Virus record (IMG/VR): IMGVR_UViG_3300001460_000004
Location: 162,483 to 226,482 of that record
DNA length: 64,000 bases
Strand: one strand, 5' to 3'
DNA from: a virus
The position numbers and the translations under genes are program-made. This document shows positions 3,310 through 63,427 of this stretch, one piece after another; positions within the stretch are counted from its first letter, which is position 1; each line of letters opens with the position of its first letter. Below the pieces are notes generated by a model. The model was given only the letters and a program-made list of their open reading frames with translations, had not been told where the DNA came from and did no database searches.

Positions 3310-4455
3310 ATGATCTTCTGTCATGCTCCCTGGACAAATATTGATATTAACCAACAAGGCACAATAGCACCTTGTTGTAAGTTTCGTCATGTTCATTACA
3401 ATGAATCTGAATACAATATTTTTGATCATTCTGTGGAACAGTATATTGAAAGCGATACATTAACTTCAGTTAAAGAAGATTTCAAACAAGGTAATTGGCC
3501 AATTGGGTGTATACGTTGTAAAACAGAAGAAGAAAACAGGATACCAAGCAAAAGGCAAATGGATTATAAACGTTGGCAATCGGTGTTAGACTCTCGTGAC
3601 TTAATCAAAAAAGAATTTATAACTAGTAGTATTGCATTTGGAAATACATGCAATCTTAAATGTATTACATGCAGCAGCTGGGCTAGTAGTCGGTGGCACA
3701 AAGAATATAAAGACTTAACTGGTATGGATATTAAACCAGTACACTTTCGTAAAAATAAATTTGTAGAAGAGTTTGTTAAATGGGCACCTGATATGTTGCA
3801 CATTGACATTCCAGGCGGTGAACCATTTTTAAGTGGTGTACCAGCACAACATCAATTATTAGACTACTATATTACAACAGGCAAAGCTCAACACATGACA
3901 TTGCACTATACAACAAATGTTACAATTTGGCCTAATGACGAATGGTGGACTAGATGGCAACATTTTAAAAACGTAGAAATACAATTGAGTTTGGATGGTA
4001 TTGATCAACAGTTTGAATACATTAGACATCCGGCAAACTGGAATACAGTATTACAACACATCAAACAATACCAAACCAAACAGATAAAATACATTAACGT
4101 TGAGCTAAGTGTTGCCCACACTGTAAGTGCATACAATGTTTATTACCTTGACAAGTTTTATGCATGGTGCGAAAGCGTTGGGTTACCAAAACCTTGGTGC
4201 GGCAGAGTACATGATCCAAATGAAATGCGTCCAACTGTTTGGCATGGTAAAGCCAAGCAAGCTATAATAAAAAGATTATATAAAAGTAAATTTATTGATG
4301 TAAGGAAATGGGCTCAACTGATGTTAGAAAATGATGACAGTGAGCATTATGATGCATTTGTAAAACGTACGGCATGGCATGACCAATACCGCGGCACAAA
4401 CTTTTCAAAAATTTTTCCTGAAATGTCTGAATATCTGTTGACACATGCGTCCTAA
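3310..4455 (+). CDS. Radical SAM protein with a Cys-rich (twitch-type) region
   Basis: The radical SAM cluster motif CNLKCITC (CxxxCxxC) lies near residues 114-121. It is followed by a GGEP motif (IPGGEPFLSG) that binds S-adenosylmethionine. The N-terminal region has more cysteines (APCCKF, GCIRCKTEE), as in phage radical SAM proteins with an N-terminal auxiliary cluster domain. Substrate unknown. The gene at 17505 is a related protein, and both would need the iron-sulfur supply suggested by the IscU and IscA-like genes in this window. Confidence 0.85.
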   Translation: MIFCHAPWTNIDINQQGTIAPCCKFRHVHYNESEYNIFDHSVEQYIESDTLTSVKEDFKQGNWPIGCIRCKTEEENRIPSKRQMDYKRWQSVLDSRDLIKKEFITSSIAFGNTCNLKCITCSSWASSRWHKEYKDLTGMDIKPVHFRKNKFVEEFVKWAPDMLHIDIPGGEPFLSGVPAQHQLLDYYITTGKAQHMTLHYTTNVTIWPNDEWWTRWQHFKNVEIQLSLDGIDQQFEYIRHPANWNTVLQHIKQYQTKQIKYINVELSVAHTVSAYNVYYLDKFYAWCESVGLPKPWCGRVHDPNEMRPTVWHGKAKQAIIKRLYKSKFIDVRKWAQLMLENDDSEHYDAFVKRTAWHDQYRGTNFSKIFPEMSEYLLTHAS

Positions 4456-48243: not shown

Positions 48244-49416
48244 ATGCAAGATCTTAAATTTACAACATGTGGAGATTATATGAATCAATCAAAACGGCGT
48301 ATTGGCTTTGCATGCAAGTATCTACATGAAGATCAATCACAAAAACCTAAGTTACTCGAAGAACTACAGCGACCTTTAACAGAAAAGAGTACTACTGTAA
48401 CTTGGCTAAATAATCAAAGCAGAGATGTTGCTGAACAACGTTTGTGGGACATCATGGTACACAATGCAGCAGCTGCAGAAAGGTTGGTAAAGTATGTGGG
48501 AAGCCTTGATCCTGAGCTTAGAATGGTCCGACTGGGTAGCAATCAGCTTCCTTGTGCTACCCACCCTGATTGGATGTATTTTTGGAGTAAGCCTGATGTT
48601 ATTGCCTACTGTGAAAAACACTATGCCAAAGTCGGTGAAGCGGCAAGAGCCCTCGATGTCCGATTATCGATGCATCCCGGTCAATTTGTCGTACTGGCCA
48701 GTGACAACGATGACATTGTCAAACGATCAATAGAGGAGTTTGAATACCATGCTAATCTCATCAGGTGGATGGGCTTCGGCCGAGAATTTCAAGACTTTAA
48801 ATGTAACATCCACATATCGGGTCGTAAAGGCCCGGCAGGCATCAAAGCAGTTCTCCCAAGACTCTCGCAAGAAGCGAGAAACACTATTACAATCGAAAAC
48901 GACGAAAACAAGTGGGGAATTAACGACAGCCTCGAACTTGCAGACGACCTCGCACTCGTACTTGACATACACCACCACTGGTGCCGTGAAGGTGAATACT
49001 TCAGCCCCACCGACGATAGATATCAACGCATAATTGATAGTTGGCGTGGTGTGCGGCCTGTGATACATTACAGTTACAGCAGGACTGAGCAATTGCCCCA
49101 AGGCTATGCACACAATACACTACCTGATATGCCAGCACTATTAGAAGCAGGCTACAAAAAAGGTAAGCTACGTGGACACAGTGACTACTATCCTAATCAG
49201 CTTGTAAATGACTATGCACTAAGTTTTTGGGACTATGCAGATATTATGTGCGAGGCTAAAATGAAAAACTTGGCTAGTTTTCAATTGTATCAACAATATC
49301 AGACACAATTAGAGCAACCCAATCAGTCTCAAACATTAATTGAAAATTGTGCTCCACAATTGGTTTACATTGCGCCAGGTAATGATCAACATCAAGTTGA
49401 TTTACAGCCAGTATAG
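48244..49416 (+). CDS. UV damage endonuclease (UVDE/UvsE type)
   Basis: The TIM-barrel metal-site motifs are present: LSMHPGQFVVL, HISGRKG, TIENDENKWG, LVLDIHHHW and VIHYSYSR. Members nick DNA 5' to UV photoproducts and other distortions. The first 280 residues match the family. The last 48 or so (after FQLYQQYQ) overlap the 3' end of the converging glycosyltransferase gene by 143 bases and may be an acquired extension. The stretch about 48,840-49,020 is clearly richer in GC (about 42 to 53% by count) than its surroundings. Confidence 0.88.
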   Translation: MQDLKFTTCGDYMNQSKRRIGFACKYLHEDQSQKPKLLEELQRPLTEKSTTVTWLNNQSRDVAEQRLWDIMVHNAAAAERLVKYVGSLDPELRMVRLGSNQLPCATHPDWMYFWSKPDVIAYCEKHYAKVGEAARALDVRLSMHPGQFVVLASDNDDIVKRSIEEFEYHANLIRWMGFGREFQDFKCNIHISGRKGPAGIKAVLPRLSQEARNTITIENDENKWGINDSLELADDLALVLDIHHHWCREGEYFSPTDDRYQRIIDSWRGVRPVIHYSYSRTEQLPQGYAHNTLPDMPALLEAGYKKGKLRGHSDYYPNQLVNDYALSFWDYADIMCEAKMKNLASFQLYQQYQTQLEQPNQSQTLIENCAPQLVYIAPGNDQHQVDLQPV

Positions 49417-58939: not shown

Positions 58940-59061
58940 CATTTTTAGTATGGCACTTGCTAGCTATAGGAACAGTAATGGCGTTGTCTTTTTTTGCTGG
59001 TTACAAATTTGCTAGACGTAAAGAAGATAAATACTACTTGAGTAAGATAAATACTATTTAA
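58936..59061 (+). CDS. Small membrane protein
   Basis: 41 residues with one membrane segment (LLAIGTVMALSFFAGY) and a basic end. It starts with an ATGA overlap. Confidence 0.55.
   Translation: MTFLVWHLLAIGTVMALSFFAGYKFARRKEDKYYLSKINTI
59024..59056 (+). repeat. Tandem 13-base repeat containing late-promoter-like boxes
   Basis: AAGATAAATACTA occurs at 59024-59036 and again at 59044-59056, 20 bases apart. Each copy holds a TAAATA box (59028-59033 and 59048-59053). The second is about 55 bases before the ATG of the copper monooxygenase gene. They may be duplicated late promoters. Confidence 0.6.
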
Positions 59062-59105
59062 GTAACAGTGCAGTAATCGTTACTACATTTTCAAGAGGAA
59101 AATTT

Positions 59106-60395
59106 ATGAAATACATTACAGCAGCACTAGCAGCTTTATTCCCACTTGTCCTATCAGCACAAACATACACTAGCGAAGTAGCAGATATCATCAACGATAA
59201 CTGTGTAGTGTGTCATCGTGCAGGCGGCATTGGGCCAATGAGCTTTGAAACATACGAGCAAGTAAGACCTTGGGCACCATTAATATCACTTAAAGTAATG
59301 AAAAGAGAAATGCCACCATATGCGTATGACCATGGCATTGGAATTCAAGACCTTCAAGGTGATTGGCGCTTATCACAAAAAGACATAGACGCAGTAGTTG
59401 AGTGGGTAGATAACGGAGCAAGTTATGGAGATCCAGACAAGGTAGTACAGCCAGCAAATTTACGTGATCCAGAAGCATGGAACTTTGAAGGAGACTTTGG
59501 CGCACCGGACACAATTATTGCAAGCGTAGCAATAGATATTCCTGCAAGCGGCAACGACTTGTGGCATAAGCACAATGTTCCAACAGGACTAAGCGAAGAC
59601 CGTTGCATTAAAGCAGTACAAGTTAAACCACGTGGCGATGCAAAATCAGTAGTACATCATGCCAACTCAAGTATTATAACTGAGGGAGGCAGACAAGGTA
59701 TGCTAACTGAGTATGCTATGGGAAAGTGGGGAGAGATAGTTCCAGAAGGAGTATGCAGAACTATCCCAGCAAACGCAGAAGTAGCATGGGATATTCACAT
59801 GTTCCCAGGTGGACTTGGAGCAATGGCACCAGGATCAGTTATTCGAGACAACGTGGTAGAGATTGGTCTTTGGTTATACACCGAAGAGGAAAGCCAAGAA
59901 CTGAAATACAAACAAGATTTGAGTTTGTATCGCCTGGGCGATCAGGACGATATTACTATCCCACCACACGGCTATTACATGACACAAGGCTTCCACAGTT
60001 TTGATCATCCAGTTAGACTAGATAGTTTTCAACCACACGGACACTTGCGTATGAACGCAGCAAGTTTGGAAATATTCTATCCAGAGACAGGACGCACAGA
60101 ACAGATTAGCCAAGTAAGTAATTGGAGTGCAACATGGCATCACAGTCATTTGTATGACCCGGACGTTGCACCACTCCTACCAGCTGGAGCAGTTATTGTT
60201 CTAAAGCAATGGTATGACAACACAGCAGAAAATCCAAACAATCCAGATCCTGATATGTGGGTAATGGGCGGTTCACGTACAGGTGATGAAATGACCCATG
60301 CATGGCTTGCTATCACACACTTAGACGATGAAGGATACAACAAACTAAAGGAAGAAAGGAATGGCATATTCAAGCAAAGTATTGGATCATTATGA
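59106..60395 (+). CDS. Secreted cytochrome c / copper type II monooxygenase-like protein
   Basis: A signal peptide (MKYITAALAALFPLVLSA) is followed by a heme c site, CVVCH at residues 33-37, with a likely axial Met in KREMPPY (M69). The rest carries His-rich metal-site candidates HHANS, DIHMFPGG, PHGHLRM, WHHSHLYD and MTHAWLAI, in the layout of copper type II (PHM-like) monooxygenases fused to cytochrome c in bacteria. 429 residues. An AGAGGAAA site precedes the ATG. The gene looks less AT-rich than its neighbours, suggesting recent acquisition. It would act in the periplasm. Its substrate is unknown. Confidence 0.8.
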   Translation: MKYITAALAALFPLVLSAQTYTSEVADIINDNCVVCHRAGGIGPMSFETYEQVRPWAPLISLKVMKREMPPYAYDHGIGIQDLQGDWRLSQKDIDAVVEWVDNGASYGDPDKVVQPANLRDPEAWNFEGDFGAPDTIIASVAIDIPASGNDLWHKHNVPTGLSEDRCIKAVQVKPRGDAKSVVHHANSSIITEGGRQGMLTEYAMGKWGEIVPEGVCRTIPANAEVAWDIHMFPGGLGAMAPGSVIRDNVVEIGLWLYTEEESQELKYKQDLSLYRLGDQDDITIPPHGYYMTQGFHSFDHPVRLDSFQPHGHLRMNAASLEIFYPETGRTEQISQVSNWSATWHHSHLYDPDVAPLLPAGAVIVLKQWYDNTAENPNNPDPDMWVMGGSRTGDEMTHAWLAITHLDDEGYNKLKEERNGIFKQSIGSL

Positions 60396-60735
60396 AAATC
60401 CAAGAAACGTAGGAAAATGGGATCCTGCAGATAATATTGGCACAGGTATGGTAGGAGCGCCTGCCTGTGGCGATGTTATGCGTCTACAAATTAAAGTAGA
60501 AGATAACATAATCACTGATGCTAAGTTTAAAACATATGGGTGTGGTAGTGCTATTGCAAGTAGTAGCTTACTCACTGAATGGGTTAAAGGAATGACATTA
60601 GAAACAGCAGGTGAAATAAAGAATATAGATCTTGCAGAAGAACTTGCATTACCTCCAGTTAAGATACATTGCAGTGTATTAGCCGAAGATGCTATTAATG
60701 CTGCAATAAAAGATTATACGGATAAACAACAATAA
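60361..60735 (+). CDS. iscU: IscU-type iron-sulfur cluster scaffold
   Basis: MAYSSKVLDHYENPRNVGKW opens a full-length scaffold (124 residues). The three ligand Cys lie in GAPACGDV, TYGCGSA and KIHCSVL, and the chaperone-binding LPPVK segment is intact. IscU assembles Fe-S clusters with IscS and passes them on. It overlaps the preceding oxidase gene by 35 bases. With the IscA-like gene at 25194, the virus supplies two parts of the Fe-S assembly path, but no cysteine desulfurase is in the window. Confidence 0.92.
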   Translation: MAYSSKVLDHYENPRNVGKWDPADNIGTGMVGAPACGDVMRLQIKVEDNIITDAKFKTYGCGSAIASSSLLTEWVKGMTLETAGEIKNIDLAEELALPPVKIHCSVLAEDAINAAIKDYTDKQQ

Positions 60736-62229: not shown

Positions 62230-62454
62230 ATGCGTATTACAATAATGTTAGTTGGAATGTTAGTGGCCTTAACAGGCTGTAAAAATGTAGATGAAGTAAT
62301 TGATTTTGAAACAATGGAATTTAATTTTGAAAATTTAATCCCAGAACAACCCAAATTTGATTGGGCTCCTGAGCCTGAGGTATTTCAGCAAAATATAAGA
62401 GACTGTCGATCACAGCCTGTTTGTCGTGCCGAAACTCTTTTCCGGGTAAGTTAA
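62230..62454 (+). CDS. Small lipoprotein
   Basis: The N-terminus (MRITIMLVGMLVALTGC) is a lipoprotein signal with lipobox LTGC, Cys 17. The mature part is about 57 residues, acidic, with two more Cys near the end. AGGAAAG precedes the ATG. It is of a size that could act in lysis or superinfection exclusion, but no partner is clear. The 116-base gap before it contains an imperfect hairpin and no gene. Confidence 0.7.
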   Translation: MRITIMLVGMLVALTGCKNVDEVIDFETMEFNFENLIPEQPKFDWAPEPEVFQQNIRDCRSQPVCRAETLFRVS

Positions 62455-62567
62455 TCTTTAAATGCTTCGTGTCCTTCAAAATACATTTGTATCATAACAT
62501 GTATAGCAACATTAATACCTGCTACAATCAACATGTATGTAAAGAACATTGGAGCTCCACCGATCAT
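62451..62567 (-). CDS. Very small membrane protein
   Basis: A 38-residue frame starting at the ATG at 62565-62567 (MIGGAPMFFTYMLIV), with one membrane segment and an acidic end. It overlaps the lipoprotein stop by four bases and starts one base after the stop of the upstream minus-strand gene. An in-frame upstream ATG exists but lies inside that gene. Confidence 0.5.
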   Translation of the reverse strand: MIGGAPMFFTYMLIVAGINVAIHVMIQMYFEGHEAFKD

Positions 62568-62568
62568 A

Positions 62569-62730
62569 TTATTCGGATTTCCAAATGGTCCAAGCACCAT
62601 AGGCAATAGCAAGTCCCGCAGCAATTTTTGCCAATGGTGCAAGGAACAACACCATAAGTCCTAGTACTACTAGTGCAGCACCATCCCAAGACGTGCGTTC
62701 TTTCATGCGTTTATCAATCCAATTTTTCAT
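62569..62730 (-). CDS. Small membrane protein
   Basis: A 53-residue frame, MKNWIDKRMKERTSWDGAA, then a membrane segment (LVVLGLMVLFLAPLAKIAAG). A GGGAGAA site precedes the ATG. The TAAATA on the minus strand at 62758-62763 would drive it with a leader of about 28 bases. I recall similar short phage proteins. Confidence 0.65.
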   Translation of the reverse strand: MKNWIDKRMKERTSWDGAALVVLGLMVLFLAPLAKIAAGLAIAYGAWTIWKSE

Positions 62731-62751
62731 TAAATTTCTCCCTAATTTACC

Positions 62752-62785: not shown

Positions 62786-63427
62786 ATGTTAGGAATTTTT
62801 AAAGACGTAGACCGAACTATGATGCTGAAACTAGCGTTATTGCATGTTGCAGTAATCACAGTGTCAAATGCTTTAGTAAGTATTCCAGTAGAATTTTTTG
62901 GAGTTAAACTAACATGGGCAGCATTTACCTTCCCATTGGTTGTTCTTGCAACCGACCTAACAGTACGAATGTTAGGTAAAAACATTGCCCGAGCAACTAT
63001 TGCGGCAGCGTATCCATTGGCTATTATTGGATCTATTGCAGTTGTAATGCTAGAAGGAGCTCCACAAAGTGTTGCATTACGCATTGGTTTTGCAAGTGCT
63101 ACTGCTTACGCAGTTGGTACAATGCTTGATGTATATGTATTTCAATACCTACGTGAGAATTGGGCCAAGCAATGGTGGCTAGCACCAGCAGTGTCAACAG
63201 TAGCCGCAAACATTATTGATACGTACACATTCTTCTGGGTAGCATTTAATAACTCAGCAGACGAGTATATGGCAGCTAACTGGATGGAAATTGCAGGATC
63301 ACAAGTTGTACTTAAAATTGCTGTGGGATTAATTATCTTCCTTCCAGCATATGGCGTACTGTTACGTTATCTAAATGGAGCGTTAAGTGAATCAGTCGTT
63401 AAGAAGAAAAAGACTGCAAAAAAATAA
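62786..63427 (+). CDS. Queuosine-precursor transporter-like protein (YhhQ/VUT family)
   Basis: 213 residues with about six hydrophobic segments. FPLVVLATDLTVRMLGKNIAR matches the family's conserved FP-x(4)-TDL-x-x-R-x-x-G stretch, and NIIDTYTFFWVAF near the end fits too. Members import 7-deazaguanine precursors such as preQ0 or preQ1. Some phages use such compounds to modify their DNA. No 7-deazaguanine biosynthesis gene is in this window, so its purpose here is open. AAAGGAAAG precedes the ATG. Confidence 0.82.
   Translation: MLGIFKDVDRTMMLKLALLHVAVITVSNALVSIPVEFFGVKLTWAAFTFPLVVLATDLTVRMLGKNIARATIAAAYPLAIIGSIAVVMLEGAPQSVALRIGFASATAYAVGTMLDVYVFQYLRENWAKQWWLAPAVSTVAANIIDTYTFFWVAFNNSADEYMAANWMEIAGSQVVLKIAVGLIIFLPAYGVLLRYLNGALSESVVKKKKTAKK

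Follow-up and report, generated by a model that had tools for sequence, protein, structure and literature searches.

Does a gene that looks like a secreted, heme c-bearing copper monooxygenase belong to the phage in whose DNA it lies, and what could such an enzyme do there? The gene, here called gene A, is found in a 64,000-nucleotide stretch of viral DNA (the window) that also encodes phage helicases, ribonucleotide reductase, tail fibre and tail spike proteins. A sequence-only reading had described its product as a periplasmic oxidoreductase with a signal peptide, a CVVCH heme site and several His-rich motifs; the open reading frame and its sequence were confirmed, and all three features held (Table 1). 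The hydrophobic leader reads MKYITAALAALFPLVLSA and is followed by QT at the inferred cleavage site. A hydrophobic leader is present in 64/64 viral ORFs checked of gene A type and of its paralogue B, and among relatives of gene A the mature protein is conserved while leader sequences vary. The motifs of gene A comprise HHANS (residues 184–188), DIHM (229–232), PHGHLR (310–315), WHHSH (344–348) and GDEMTH (393–398).

Table 1 Coordinates of gene A, its predicted functional sites and neighboring elements in the window.
Feature	Position	Strand	Remarks
Two exact GATAAATACTA copies	59026-59036 and 59046-59056	+	Resemble T4-type late promoters (TATAAATA)
AGAGGA ribosome-binding site of gene A	59094..59099	+	From sequence
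Gene A	59106..60395	+	ATG start, 429 aa, no internal stop; secreted heme c / PHM-DBH-type copper monooxygenase-like
Predicted Sec signal peptide, residues 1-18	59106..59159	+	Cleavage between VLSA and QT inferred from sequence
CVVCH heme c attachment site, C33-H37	59202..59216	+	CxxCH invariant in 46 and in 38 relatives
M69 in MPP, likely distal heme ligand	59310..59312	+	Invariant in 38/38 family members
H184-H185, predicted CuH ligands	59655..59660	+	Invariant; columns align with HH of DBH ALVHHM (hmmsearch alignment)
H231, predicted CuH ligand	59796..59798	+	Invariant; aligned with DBH LEVHYH
H311-x-H313, predicted CuM ligands	60036..60044	+	At least 90% conserved in 38 members; aligned with DBH QLHTHL
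M396 (DEM), predicted CuM methionine ligand	60291..60293	+	Invariant in 38 members
iscU	60361..60735	+	NifU_N E=1.6e-51; overlaps gene A by exactly 35 nt
sm1, small one-TM protein (HVMIQMYFEGHEAF, EGHEAF)	62454..62642	-	Immediately follows A or A-B, same strand, in 31 other phage loci
sm2, small membrane protein	62569..62730	-	In 29 other phage loci upstream of A, same strand

Ligand conservation was assessed in an alignment of 38 family members with a mean column identity of 27%. Nineteen positions are invariant, among them C33, C36, H37, M69, H184, H185, H231 and M396. The class I cytochrome c pattern, CxxCH with a downstream methionine, is present in gene A (C33, C36, H37 and M69). Pfam gathering scores for class I cytochromes c are not met by gene A (PF13442, 19.8 bits vs 27, E=1e-3; PF00034, 18.9 vs 21.3), and the role of M69 as axial heme ligand, although likely, rests on comparison with this class. 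The copper-ligand order of PHM and dopamine beta-hydroxylase (DBH), namely HH, H, HxH and M, is complete. Five of the six ligands could be aligned with DBH, and four of the six (H184, H185, H231 and M396) are invariant across the 38 relatives. M396 probably corresponds to the ligand methionine of PHM and DBH, an analogy based on ligand order and context, since the alignment to DBH does not extend to this residue. Five extra histidines, H297, H301, H345, H346 and H348, do not vary among A-type proteins, whereas they do across the wider family; they might form a third metal site or serve in a proton relay.

Sequence profiles and structure prediction point in the same direction, at different strength. 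The profile of the 38-member family matched human DBH in the PDB (hmmsearch, E=0.005), with the HH, H and HxH columns in register, whereas a PDB sequence search with an A-only profile gave no match, so that DBH is reached only by the broad family profile. The gene A protein itself did not match PF01082 or PF03712 even at E<=10, and PF03712 (Cu2_monoox_C) is matched weakly by 13 of the 38 relatives. Because the Pfam gathering score is unmet, we term gene A PHM/DBH-like and keep it out of the Pfam family. An AlphaFold2 model of the protein, computed without metals, reached a pLDDT of 82 and a pTM of 0.80. Its 31 best fold matches in the PDB are PHM or DBH exclusively (E 8e-10 to 1.3e-7, the next match following at 2e-5), with target TM-scores of 0.36–0.59; the TM-score to PHM, taken over PHM length, is only 0.52–0.59. 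The predicted structure thereby satisfies the two-domain beta-sandwich fold of PHM and DBH. A BFVD fold search, run with an earlier and weaker model, yielded no convincing match (TM <0.25). Collectively, residue conservation, the DBH profile match and the fold comparison support the heme c and copper monooxygenase-like identity that had been proposed for gene A.

Resemblance to PHM and DBH thus lies in the two-domain fold match, the ligand order HH..H..HxH..M and the His ligands in register with DBH. Unlike those enzymes, with which identity is about 10%, gene A carries a fused N-terminal heme c domain, is of bacterial and phage origin and is presumed not to use ascorbate. The substrate-binding arginine of PHM, which we take to be Arg240, two residues before HxH, is replaced by glutamine in gene A (Q309), and DBH likewise has a glutamine there. 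Gene A consequently lacks the substrate arginine required of PHM proper, which makes peptide amidation unlikely, and no substrate residue has been identified.

Searches of Pfam, NCBIfam, PHROGs, isolated phages and plasmids gave no naming match to gene A beyond sub-threshold cytochrome c, and the literature searched does not describe a phage enzyme of this kind; a viral cbb3 oxidase reported in one 2012 paper is a different protein. The supposition that this enzyme type is known only from bacterial genomes nevertheless failed, as close relatives of gene A were found on at least 215 IMG/VR stretches. Among the 80 relatives kept from the IMG/VR scan identity ranges from 75 to 97%, and other viral contigs carry genes 93–97% identical to gene A. 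These relatives occupy about nine T4-like contexts, including scaffold–major head protein–AB; gp47/gp46-like–A–baseplate hub; Hsp20–AB; A by NrdB; UvdE–c5–A(B)–IscA-like–tail fibre; c81/c82–AB; and A–iscU–TauD of the window. Comparison of gene A with other phages yields a dN/dS of 0.10–0.14, meaning purifying selection. Gene A is intact, under selection and found repeatedly in phage genomes beside viral hallmark genes, and so meets the genomic criterion for a putative phage auxiliary metabolic gene (AMG). It is a real, widespread phage-borne enzyme type that is named in no database searched, and its long residence in phages under purifying selection is very likely. Two observations concern the surroundings of such loci: the window holds a UvdE-type UV endonuclease gene (48244-49416), a homologue of which lies just upstream of A/B in other phages, and on a 217-kb phage contig (L028, 4438-7376) secreted proteins with curli-like repeats, recognized by eye, are encoded upstream of A/B.

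Paralogue B is encoded on 123 IMG/VR stretches and, like gene A, was without a match among the isolated phages searched. The two paralogues are homologous at the profile level (hhalign 100%) yet only ~26% identical. Of the 150 viral loci fetched, 115 have B downstream of A in the same orientation, with spacing from overlap to ~770 b; the 150 loci overlap, since the A and B scans matched many of the same contigs. Both genes are present, by our own count, on about 50 of the 80 A-scan contigs. In 20 loci whose downstream sequence extends for 3 kb or more, A occurs without B. B was not found in the 230,036-base marine phage record holding the window, a record that may be incomplete.

Bacterial relatives of gene A derive mostly from marine Gammaproteobacteria MAGs and are 64–83% identical over the whole protein. 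This cytochrome c-PHM family shares the architecture of gene A and differs from the phage gene by its many paralogues per genome and its dehydrogenase neighbors. Eight bacterial genomes were searched (G001-G008, including L082, L103, L105, L114, L116, L087 and L120); seven contain 13–37 family members and the eighth (G002) contains 2. None of the bacterial paralogues has a Pfam or NCBIfam name. Some possess an N-terminal redoxin domain, and bacterial B has an extra N-terminal redoxin-like domain, its HxH site being lost in close kin. A close A-type copy is present in 32 of 59 genomes of one bacterial family. Genes around the bacterial relatives encode a GMC oxidoreductase with gluconate dehydrogenase subunit 3, PQQ dehydrogenase, GSDH, a TonB receptor, an MFS transporter and a serine hydrolase, neighbors which suggest that an organic compound is imported and oxidized step by step in the periplasm.

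In the A tree, about 50 distinct viral sequences group with a few bacterial ones, and the AU test does not reject one viral clade (p=0.61; long or partial rows were dropped and two misbinned phage contigs were counted as viral). A nesting of the bacterial rows L082, L084, L115 and L085 within the viral clade was considered and discarded as not robust, in view of the same test. Of the two misbinned contigs, L083, a 335-kb contig binned as Neomarinimicrobiota, carries clamp-loader and ThyX-like genes, and L092, binned as Flavobacteriales, carries small phage-like genes; both are probably phage DNA. An ultimately gammaproteobacterial ancestry of gene A is likely. The suggestion of a host-derived gene is therefore supported as far as bacterial ancestry is concerned and not for a fresh capture from the host, against which the large phage clade, a phage-like GC3 and purifying selection speak.

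Gene A had also been noted as less AT-rich than its neighbors, which holds for overall GC (43.7% vs 33–37% in most nearby genes, about 8 points over the flanks). GC3 remains phage-like, at 0.32 in gene A compared with 0.19–0.27 in nearby genes and 0.63 in the bacterial copy L082; with GC3 this low, the GC rise is owed mostly to amino acid composition. The proposed 35-base overlap with iscU was exact. The last ~10 residues of gene A, GIFKQSIGSL, correspond to the iscU start in another frame, unlike relatives, which end in ERNGKVKIANR, KVKIANR, KFNIASK or similar, and the junction therefore has the appearance of a deletion or recombination scar. That iscU was joined to the 3′ end of gene A by such an event is likely, though inferred from sequence alone. 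An independent contig, L219, has an A gene and iscU separated by ~0.67 kb, a space occupied by two small genes (c21- and sm2-like). As iscU has already been described in T4-like marine phages, some of them linked to SAR86 (PMC5332604), its presence beside gene A is ordinary. Like such AMGs of marine T4-like phages, gene A is a host-type metabolic gene, here adjacent to iscU itself; it differs from them as a predicted secreted heme-copper oxygenase.

Two repeats reported upstream of gene A were likewise confirmed. Allowing one mismatch, GATAAATACTA occurs four times in the window where 2.6 matches are expected, hence the motif itself is not rare. Of 44 viral A genes, 16 have ATAAATA in the 160 b before them, compared with 34 among 173 other genes whose upstream gap exceeds 60 b. 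Support for a late promoter is accordingly weak, the enrichment over other genes being only about twofold, and such a promoter is a possibility at most.

We consider it likely that gene A is a functional phage AMG encoding a periplasmic, heme c-fed dicopper hydroxylase of a small molecule, with activity, metal loading and benefit to infection being inferred. Architecture, ligand conservation, fold match, phage residence and purifying selection are shown; metal loading, electron route, monooxygenase activity and infection benefit are drawn by analogy from the chemistry of PHM and DBH, which is established. In the proposed mechanism, the gene A product would be exported by Sec to the host periplasm, where heme c would be attached by the host Ccm maturation system (possession of ccm by the host is not established) and two copper ions from the periplasm would be bound in the C-terminal two-domain PHM/DBH-type beta-sandwich. 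Electrons would pass from a host periplasmic cytochrome or the quinol pool through the fused N-terminal cytochrome c domain to CuH, replacing ascorbate, while CuM would activate O2, leading to hydroxylation of a small organic substrate. Host periplasmic dehydrogenases may then take over the product, from which the infected cell would gain electrons or carbon. That a small molecule is oxidized, as suggested earlier, is plausible at the level of inference. In most relatives B follows A on the same strand, probably within one transcript; in the phage of the window, B has been lost or was never present. A bolder reading, which in our judgment may as well prove wrong as right, takes A and B together as a heme c-coupled dicopper monooxygenase system, the first PHM/DBH-type enzyme seen in viruses. 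Its cassette would move between late clusters of marine T4-like phages and enable infected gammaproteobacteria to oxidize a dissolved organic compound in the periplasm, respiratory electrons replacing ascorbate.

Alternatively, gene A might encode a secreted copper- and heme-binding protein without catabolic function, one that modifies the host envelope or a periplasmic target (superinfection exclusion and lysis timing are examples) or that carries electrons or copper. The location of the cassette within late structural clusters, often beside the major head protein, the late-promoter-like repeats upstream, and the invariant extra histidines of the A type, unexplained by the PHM sites, would fit this view. 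Against it stand the conservation of the full heme and copper ligand sets, as catalysis would predict, and the oxidoreductase neighborhoods of bacterial relatives, and we regard it as unlikely.

The remaining alternatives concern the origin of the gene. Misassembly, in which a bacterial gene was joined to the contig, could be suspected from the elevated GC and from the first known homologues being bacterial. It is all but excluded by the near-identical genes on other viral contigs, the GC3 far below that of the L082 copy, the A gene near iscU on L219, and the dozens of relatives sitting among phage genes. A chimera, or absence of the gene from sister phages, had been named in the sequence-only reading as refuting its proposal; when checked, this objection failed, given the relatives in sister phages, the phage contexts and L219. 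A recent capture from the present host, without an established phage role, draws on bacterial homologues of up to 83% identity. It is very unlikely in the face of about 50 distinct and diverse phage sequences for which one viral clade is not rejected, a dN/dS of about 0.1, and sister phages (97%) that are closer than any bacterial genome seen.

Oxygenase genes known in phages include those for membrane PmoC/AmoC. Cytosolic 2-oxoglutarate oxygenases, like the TauD homologue near gene A, are also among them. A secreted heme-copper enzyme, if confirmed, would extend the reach of phage reprogramming to redox chemistry in the host periplasm. New is an enzyme type unrecorded among the isolated phages searched; host-derived AMGs and the PHM/DBH-like fold were already known. 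The family is large in marine Gammaproteobacteria and yet unnamed in Pfam and NCBIfam. In phages it is pared down to one or two genes that are conserved over hundreds of contigs, and this version therefore offers a compact handle on family function and on the dissolved organic matter targeted.

Two small genes of the window, sm1 and sm2, lie together at 62454-62733 on the minus strand. In the 29 other phage loci with sm2, its distance to A is 130–650 b, mostly about 175 b. A role of sm1 as dedicated partner of A/B was considered and is weakened by its presence at the same sites in phages without A/B; these sites likely reflect gain and loss of the A/B cassette. Next to them, at 62786-63427, the window encodes a Vut_1 family transporter. 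Transporters of this family possibly take up queuosine precursors. The same phage has, at 3310-4455, a radical SAM gene that shows weak QueE-like similarity.
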